Source: an uncultured Cellvibrionales bacterium (lineage in GTDB: Bacteria; Pseudomonadota; Gammaproteobacteria; Pseudomonadales; UBA7239). Taken from it: 32,989 bases of DNA. This document shows positions 5,773 through 32,989 of the stretch, in pieces. The DNA lies in the NCBI GenBank assembly GCA_937864065.1, contig CALMIC010000152.1, forward strand, positions 1 to 32,989, read 5' to 3'. The stretch's first letter is position 1, and every line of letters starts with the position of its first letter. The notes under the pieces are model-generated. The model worked only from the letters and a program-made list of their open reading frames with translations. It did not search any database and was not told where the DNA came from. Made by a program: the position numbers and the translations under genes.

Positions 5773-6120
5773 GCGGAGTTGGCCAGGCAACCGCTGCCTT
5801 TCGGGGTGGAGGAAAGTCCGGGCTCCACAGGGCAAGGTGCCAGGTAACGCCTGGGCGGCGCGAGCCGACGGACAGTGCAACAGAGAGCAAACCGCCGAAC
5901 GGCCGTAAGGTGCGTGGCAAGGGTGAAACGGTGCGGTAAGAGCGCACCGCGAGTCTGGTAACAGACCGGCACGGCAAACCCCACCTGGAGCAAGACCAAA
6001 TAGGCACCCTTTGGCGCGGCCCGCGTCGGGTGCGGGTAGGTCGCTTGAGGCCTGCGGTGACGCAGGTCCCAGATGAATGGTTGCCCAAGACAGAACCCGG
6101 CTTATCGGCCGACTCCGCCA
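5773..6120 (+). ncRNA. rnpB: RNase P RNA (bacterial type A)
   Basis: P1 pairing gcggagttggcc / ggccgactccgc. Conserved GGAGGAAAGTCCGGGCTCC, CAGTGCAACAGAGAGCAAACCGCC, GGGTGAAACGGTGCGGTAAGAGCGCACCG, GAATGGTTGCCCAAGACAGAACCCGGCTTATCGG. P3 is short. Confidence 0.97.
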
Positions 6121-31185: not shown

Positions 31186-32562
31186 TCACTGCTCGATGGC
31201 GTCCAGTGCTTCGGACAGTTTTTTTACGCCGATAATGCGCATATCGCCCAGCGCCTCGCGCGGCATATTGGCTGCCGGTACAATGGCGGTGCGAAATCCG
31301 TGCTTGGCCGCTTCACGGATGCGCTCCTGGCCGCTCGGCACCGGGCGGATCTCGCCTGACAAACCCACTTCACCAAATACAACCATGTCGCGCGGCAGCG
31401 GCCGGTTGCGGAAGCTCGACACCATCGCCAGCAGCGATGCGAGGTCGGCGCTGGTTTCCGTGACTTTCACGCCACCCACGACGTTGACAAACACATCCTG
31501 GTCGCCGAGTTGCAGGCCGCCGTGGCGGTGCAGAACGGCGAGCAGCATCGCGAGGCGATTCTGGTCGAGGCCTACCGCAACGCGCCGCGGGTTGCCGAAG
31601 GCGTTGGCATCCACCAGTGCCTGTATTTCCACCAGTAGCGGACGCGTGCCTTCCCACACCACCATCACTGCCGAGCCGCTGGCGATCTCATCGCTGCGCG
31701 AAAGGAAAATTGCCGACGGGTTGTTCACTTCGCGCAGGCCCTGCTCGGTCATCGCAAACACCCCGAGTTCGTTCACCGCGCCAAAGCGGTTCTTGTGGCT
31801 GCGCAGGGTGCGGTAGCGCGAGTCATCAGTGCTGTCGAGCATGATCGACGTGTCGATCATGTGTTCCAGCACTTTCGGGCCGGCGAGTGTGCCGTCTTTC
31901 GTCACATGGCCGACCAGGATCAACACGGTGCCGGTTTGCTTCGCGAATCGGGTCAGCAGGGCGGCGCATTCGCGCACCTGGCCAACCGAGCCGGGCGCGG
32001 ACGGCAACTCCGGCCAGTGCATGACCTGGATCGAGTCAACCACCATCACTGCCGGCTTGCAGGATTCCGCTACAGCCAGCAATGCCTCGATGTTGGTTTC
32101 AGAGAGTGTCTGCAGGCGGTCGGTCGGCAGGCCGAGACGCCGGGCACGCATGGCGACTTGCTGCAGGGATTCCTCGCCGGTGACATACAGGCAGGGCTGT
32201 TGTTGGGCCAGCCGGCACAACAGCTGCAGCAGCAGGGTGCTCTTGCCGGCGCCGGGGTTGCCGCCGATCAGCACCGCTGAGCCGGCCACCAGACCGCCAC
32301 CCAGCACCCGGTCCAGCTCGGCGCTGCCGGTGCCGATGCGGGCCTGTTCCTGTAGTGCGATCTGGTCGAGTGTCTGGATGCCGCCGCCAACGGCACCGGC
32401 AAAGCCCTCGCGCCGGGAGCCGCTGGCGCGCACGGCCTTGCTGCTGCCCAGTTTCACTTCCGAGAGCGTGTTCCAGCCGCCGCAGGCCGTGCACTGGCCT
32501 GCCCACTTGCTGTAATCCGCCCCGCAGTCGTTGCAGACAAATGCTGTCTTGTTCTTGCTCAT
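31186..32562 (-). CDS. radA: DNA repair protein RadA
   Basis: Start MSKNKTAFVCNDCGADYSKWAGQCTACGGWNT at 32562 (ORF track begins upstream). Zinc finger, Walker A GGNPGAGKSTLL, KNRFG motif (HKNRFGAVNELGVF), Lon-like C-terminus. Confidence 0.96.
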   Translation of the reverse strand: MSKNKTAFVCNDCGADYSKWAGQCTACGGWNTLSEVKLGSSKAVRASGSRREGFAGAVGGGIQTLDQIALQEQARIGTGSAELDRVLGGGLVAGSAVLIGGNPGAGKSTLLLQLLCRLAQQQPCLYVTGEESLQQVAMRARRLGLPTDRLQTLSETNIEALLAVAESCKPAVMVVDSIQVMHWPELPSAPGSVGQVRECAALLTRFAKQTGTVLILVGHVTKDGTLAGPKVLEHMIDTSIMLDSTDDSRYRTLRSHKNRFGAVNELGVFAMTEQGLREVNNPSAIFLSRSDEIASGSAVMVVWEGTRPLLVEIQALVDANAFGNPRRVAVGLDQNRLAMLLAVLHRHGGLQLGDQDVFVNVVGGVKVTETSADLASLLAMVSSFRNRPLPRDMVVFGEVGLSGEIRPVPSGQERIREAAKHGFRTAIVPAANMPREALGDMRIIGVKKLSEALDAIEQ

Positions 32563-32616
32563 CGTGGGTTCCTCGATCGGCGGCATATTACACGTCCCCG
32601 CCAATCCCTGCTTTTT

Positions 32617-32634
32617 TGTACGAAATGTCTTACA
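32617..32634 (+). promoter_or_regulatory. Candidate GacA-binding upstream activating sequence (GacA box)
   Basis: TGTACG-AAATGT-CTTACA against consensus TGTAAG-N6-CTTACA: 11 of 12 fixed positions match, with the central AT. Confidence 0.7.
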
Positions 32635-32690
32635 GCAATTGGAGAGATTGGCCACTATTGCCGGTGGTCTCTTTTGGCAACAATGGCAAC

Positions 32691-32912
32691 ACACGGACGA
32701 CAGCACACACGGAGGTGCTACTCGAACGGATAGCCGGTAACACGGCGACAGGGAAAGGGTCAGTCAGGGAACAGGGAGTATGGACTGACCTTCAAGGGTG
32801 CCAAGGGATGCGGCCTGCTCGCGGCAGGCACCAATTGAGAGCACAAGGAAGATACCCAACAGAAGGACCCGAAACCCCACGCCACTGGAAGTGACGTGGG
32901 GTTTTATTTTTT
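32691..32912 (+). ncRNA. Putative CsrB/RsmY/RsmZ-like CsrA(RsmA)-sequestering small RNA
   Basis: 11 GGA and 0 TCC in about 222 nt. Hairpins present GGA in loops (AGCAC[ACACGGAG]GTGCT; GGTCAGTC[AGGGAACAGGGAGTATG]GACTGACC; terminator loop GGA). Near-consensus GacA box upstream, intrinsic terminator downstream, no convincing ORF. The 5' end is estimated. Confidence 0.75.
32872..32912 (+). terminator. Intrinsic terminator of the putative sRNA
   Basis: AAACCCCACG-c-CACT-GGA-AGTG-a-CGTGGGGTTT followed by TATTTTTT. Confidence 0.88.
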
Positions 32913-32930
32913 GTGCCTTGCTGGCAGGTG

Positions 32931-32989
32931 TCAACCCGTCAGGATGGCCTTCAGCTGGCTGATAGCGCCTGCACTACCCCGGCAAAGCG
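32931..32989 (-). CDS. Possible 3' end of a minus-strand gene running off the right edge (…LCRGSAGAISQLKAILTG*)
   Basis: Open minus-strand frame ending in TGA (plus-strand tca 32931-32933), convergent with the sRNA terminator. Only 18 aa are visible. Confidence 0.3.
   Translation of the reverse strand, partial: LCRGSAGAISQLKAILTG

Follow-up and report, generated by a model that had tools for sequence, protein, structure and literature searches.

The intergenic region upstream of radA

The window, that is, the whole stretch of 32,989 nucleotides analysed here, is an entire contig (C152) of a draft genome (G000) comprising 323 contigs and 2.57 Mb and about 91% complete. The locus under study is located between radA, on the minus strand, and the contig end at 32989. 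The contig stops 77 nt past a terminator and the gene downstream of the locus falls outside the window. The nearest named genome, as judged from RadA (90% identity), is that of Cellvibrionales bacterium UBA2034 (G001), the sole other genome of the same genus in the set examined. The features of the locus are collected in Table 1. At a distance from it, the window also contains a class A RNase P RNA at 5775-6120 (Rfam RF00010, 326 bits).

Table 1. Features of the radA-adjacent locus (window coordinates)
Feature	Position	Strand	Remarks
radA	31186..32562	-	divergent neighbour; start codon at 32562, 54 nt from the GacA box
GacA/UvrY box TGTACGAAATGTCTTACA	32617..32634	.	one mismatch to TGTAAGN6CTTACA
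Probable -10 element AACAAT	32679..32684	+	4/6 match; starts 44 nt after the box
Predicted small RNA	32691..32911	+	~220 nt; 5' end probably at ~32688-32693; block conserved with G001
Hairpin AGCAC-ACACGGAG-GUGCU	32702..32719	+	loop holds the best CsrA-type site; same stem in G001, there with ACAUGGAG as loop
Hairpin GGUCAGUC/GACUGACC	32758..32790	+	loop with two A-N-GGA (GGA at 32768 and 32775); stem core kept in G001
GC-rich hairpin GCCUGC/GCAGGC	32813..32829	+	no GGA; conserved apart from a single C-G to U-G change
Intrinsic terminator	32872..32912	+	15-nt arms 32872-32886 / 32890-32904; GGA apical loop (32887); U tract

An earlier note, made from the sequence alone, had placed here a GacA box followed by a GGA-rich small RNA, and its reading of the motifs proved exact for the box and its single mismatch, for all GGA coordinates and for the lack of TCC in the RNA region. 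Boxes with at most one mismatch number four in the 2.57-Mb assembly, against one for a reversed-pattern control, and by our own arithmetic the chance of such a box within about 75 nt before the sRNA is ~1e-4. The radA-side box is the only one of the four to precede a GGA-rich, TCC-free stretch; a second sponge RNA was sought at the other three, none of which is followed by a GGA-rich, TCC-poor stretch. Elsewhere in the same genome, a one-mismatch box (TGTCAGACATTTCTTACA, G000:C62:2901-2918, minus strand, L112) lies ~90 nt before an ORF resembling a helix-hairpin-helix (ComEA-like) protein, the leader of which holds ATGGATGGAT and ACATGGAG. This ORF is possibly both a direct GacA target and a CsrA-bound mRNA.

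The RNA region contains 11 GGA (32695, 32711, 32728, 32752, 32768, 32775, 32782, 32806, 32847, 32865 and 32887), and the single TCC found within 32600-32912 is at 32605. The GGA count alone is weak evidence: dinucleotide shuffles contain 8.5 +/- 1.9 GGA and 13% of them reach 11. The CsrA/RsmA core A-N-GGA is formed at 10 of the 11 GGA versus 2.4 expected, a number reached in none of 5000 dinucleotide shuffles, and when both strands of the window were scanned, a density of at least 8 A-N-GGA per 220 nt was found at this locus only. The core matches ACANGGANG (at 32691, 32707 and 32843) and the CAGGGA repeats (at 32749, 32765 and 32772), three of each, are as previously described.

The distance from the end of the box is 43-44 nt to the -10-like hexamer and 57-58 nt to the first A-N-GGA, in the window and G001 alike. 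With no more than a 4/6 match in the hexamers of both the window and G001, the start site of the sRNA is putative. The probable -10 element is weak, as is expected of activator-dependent promoters.

None of 200 shuffles folds as well as the region 32660-32912 (z-score -3.5), and the GGA triplets are unpaired to a greater extent (0.68) than random trinucleotides (0.42; p = 0.0035). The proposal that the GGA lie in single-stranded loops holds in the predicted fold for 4 of the 11 (32711, 32768, 32775 and 32887, each at least 90% unpaired), the remaining ones being partly paired; the strong terminator with a GGA at its tip is real. High-affinity Csr/Rsm sites consist of an A-N-GGA-X hexaloop on a stem (PMC4005645), a design that the modelled hairpins at 32702-32719 and 32758-32790 fit, and sequestration needs several GGA (PMC2375449).

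Conservation within the genus and alternative readings

The window and UBA2034 share 76% identity over 299 bp at the same radA-adjacent position. The box and the GGA motifs, whose conservation in relatives the earlier note had proposed as a check, are both kept in UBA2034, with a perfect box (TGTAAGAGATCTCTTACA) and 8 A-N-GGA in the counterpart of the RNA. Between radA and the terminator, conservation is far higher towards the RNA than on the radA-proximal side. Indels of 3 nt and 2 nt separate the two sequences, which have no common reading frame; both observations speak against a coding function. A consensus fold of both sequences has 51 pairs. None is broken; 6 are changed at one partner only and 4 at both partners, and two of the double, compensatory changes are in the terminator stem, flanking the invariant GGA loop. 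As covariation drawn from two sequences, this is thin and should be taken as supporting, not decisive. A covariance model built on the window and G001 (R1) was run over 58 genomes and matched these two only, with none outside the genus. Likewise, no radA-adjacent conservation was found outside the genus: among 110 radA loci, a box with an A-N-GGA cluster is present at two, those of the window and UBA2034.

The comparison with UBA2034 also bears on other readings of the locus. The GGA-rich stretch could be the cis-acting leader of a downstream gene, a CsrA-controlled 5' UTR with the terminator acting as an attenuator. A 67-codon ORF does begin ~43 nt past the terminator in G001, and in the window the gene downstream is out of view, but both species have a strong terminator with no alternative antiterminator pairing evident, the sequence past this terminator shows little conservation between them, and a layout of ten CsrA sites, none at the ORF start, is that of a sponge rather than a leader. 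We consider a leader improbable. Slightly more remote is a base-pairing sRNA, controlled by GacA or otherwise, in which the GGA sites would be incidental. Some GGA do lie outside loops and the sRNA RgsA provides a precedent: (indirectly) controlled by Gac, it has only one GGA and does not act as a sponge (PMC2375449). Against this stand the excess of A-N-GGA over expectation in the window and the eight retained in UBA2034. The least credible reading, a chance palindrome serving radA or nothing, with no RNA gene, could appeal to the shuffles that reach the GGA count and to the four one-mismatch boxes of the genome, but it is at odds with the conservation in UBA2034 of box, promoter spacing, motifs and a terminator with compensatory changes, and with the far lower conservation of the radA-proximal side. 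A GacA-activated, CsrA-binding sRNA is favoured because it alone explains the box, the spacing, the A-N-GGA sites, the terminator and the conservation together.

Gac/Csr genes and other GacA-box loci

The earlier note had suggested looking for csrA/rsmA and gacS/gacA elsewhere in the genome, and all were found. The csrA gene (G000:C318) encodes a CsrA with the RNA-binding residue R44. It is the only csrA found in this genome (L192) and adjoins acetolactate synthase / ilvC-like genes; genomes of the same family have 2-4 copies, and a second one may be missing from the incomplete draft. The gacA gene lies directly upstream of uvrC (G000:C305), an order common to this genome and other gammaproteobacteria such as E. 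coli. Its product scores 253 bits with the GacA profile, below the NCBIfam cut-off of 280, and the next best regulator scores 72; orthology is settled because uvrC adjoins. A full-length GacS/BarA homologue is encoded in G000:C7; aligned with residues 5-908 of E. coli BarA, it is 34% identical. Six other genomes (G007, G014, G015, G022, G028 and G033) have no ortholog-level GacA (best score <100 bits), and csrA is present in three of them (G007, G014 and G015). These six genomes form a natural contrast set for asking whether GacA-box sponge RNAs are lost along with GacA.

At the sRNA, the Rfam models CsrB (RF00018), CsrC (RF00084), RsmY (RF00195) and PrrB/RsmZ (RF00166) gave no gathering-level match, nor any match at E <= 10 on 32450-32989. 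Other Rfam hits, among them sbcD and His leader models on the terminator, are all attributed to chance. Over the whole genome, the RsmY model detected only sub-cut-off, terminator-like fragments located elsewhere than the sRNA locus; over the 58 relatives it exceeded the cut-off in one genome, G024. A gathering-level RsmY (L180), with its RNA start 60 nt from a GacA box, served as positive control.

The same spacing recurs at GGA-rich loci in other genera of the order. A -10-like hexamer is located 42-43 nt from the box in loci L185, L164 and L172, and the first A-N-GGA follows the box by 57-59 nt in five loci (the window, G001, L180, L164 and L172); L178 is off-pattern, with distances of 35 and 66 nt, respectively. 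Locus L185, on the minus strand of a genome of the same family (G002:C2), has a perfect box at 1501-1518 followed by a GGA-rich stretch of ~190 nt and a terminator with ATGGATGG at its tip; it has neither an Rfam match nor sequence similarity to the window RNA and is likely the sponge RNA of its genus. Loci L178, L164 and L172 (in G009, G020 and G016, respectively) combine a box at 1501-1518 with A-N-GGA intergenic stretches, again with no Rfam match, and are likely Rsm-type RNAs. These four loci resemble the window RNA in having a box, a -10-like hexamer at 35-44 nt, A-N-GGA sites and, mostly, a terminator-like end, but no sequence relation to it is detectable. In a literature search, the terms Cellvibrionales and Rsm practically never occurred together, and then in passing only.

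The predicted RNA and known sponge RNAs

We propose, with a probability of roughly 90%, that the locus encodes a free-standing, non-coding sRNA of the RsmX/Y/Z - CsrB/C class, i.e. a GacA-driven CsrA sponge; its transcription, GacA dependence, CsrA binding and sequestration of CsrA are predicted from sequence. Phosphorylated GacA would bind the palindrome at 32617-32634 and activate the weak promoter ~44 nt downstream. An RNA of ~220 nt would then be made from ~32691, with its 3' end at the terminator (~32911). The A-N-GGA sites of this RNA, several of them in hairpin loops or open stretches, would bind several CsrA dimers and draw CsrA off the ribosome-binding sites of target mRNAs, so that GacS/GacA signalling would derepress CsrA-controlled genes. 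With such an sRNA, the Gac/Csr pathway would have its RNA component in a lineage close to UBA2034 that has gacS, gacA and csrA and in which no sponge RNA is detected with Rfam.

Of the CsrB/RsmZ-type label given in the earlier note, the functional class is supported, and no match to the corresponding Rfam families was obtained. Since no Rfam model matches and nothing was detected outside the genus in 58 genomes, the predicted sRNA adds a member to a known functional class but falls outside the known sequence families. It might even be a genus-restricted sponge that arose independently under the same GacA promoter architecture, and not a diverged RsmY/Z, which we regard as a tentative and rather doubtful idea. 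If it were true, sponge RNAs would be replaced in the course of evolution under a promoter whose design and distance from box to start are retained. As for practical use, members that escape covariance models are found when one looks for the architecture, namely a GacA box, A-N-GGA from ~57 nt onwards and a terminator.

Like RsmX, RsmY and RsmZ (PrrB) of Pseudomonas, which belongs to the same order, the predicted RNA has a GacA box with the RNA start ~57-60 nt after it, A-N-GGA repeats in hairpin loops and an intrinsic terminator, in a genome with gacS, gacA and csrA. Unlike them, it is ~220 nt long instead of ~120 nt, has 11 GGA, lies beside radA and has no Rfam match; RsmZ of P. fluorescens has 127 nt and eight GGA (PMC4005645). 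Its larger size, more numerous GGA, CAGGGA-type repeats and putative UvrY/GacA control are rather those of CsrB and CsrC of enterobacteria, Vibrio and Shewanella. It differs from the latter in having no sequence or model match to them and fewer sites than E. coli CsrB, which has about 18-22. The window RNA is very probably an ordinary, well-known kind of regulator in a lineage where Rfam misses it. Sponge RNAs of gammaproteobacteria have been predicted by such criteria since 2006 (PMC3171408). In particular, CsrB1 and CsrB2 of Shewanella, whose GacA box is the same as that of the window, were predicted from AGGA/ARGGA single-stranded sites and an upstream UvrY/GacA box, and Northern blots and mutants then bore the prediction out (PMC3171408).
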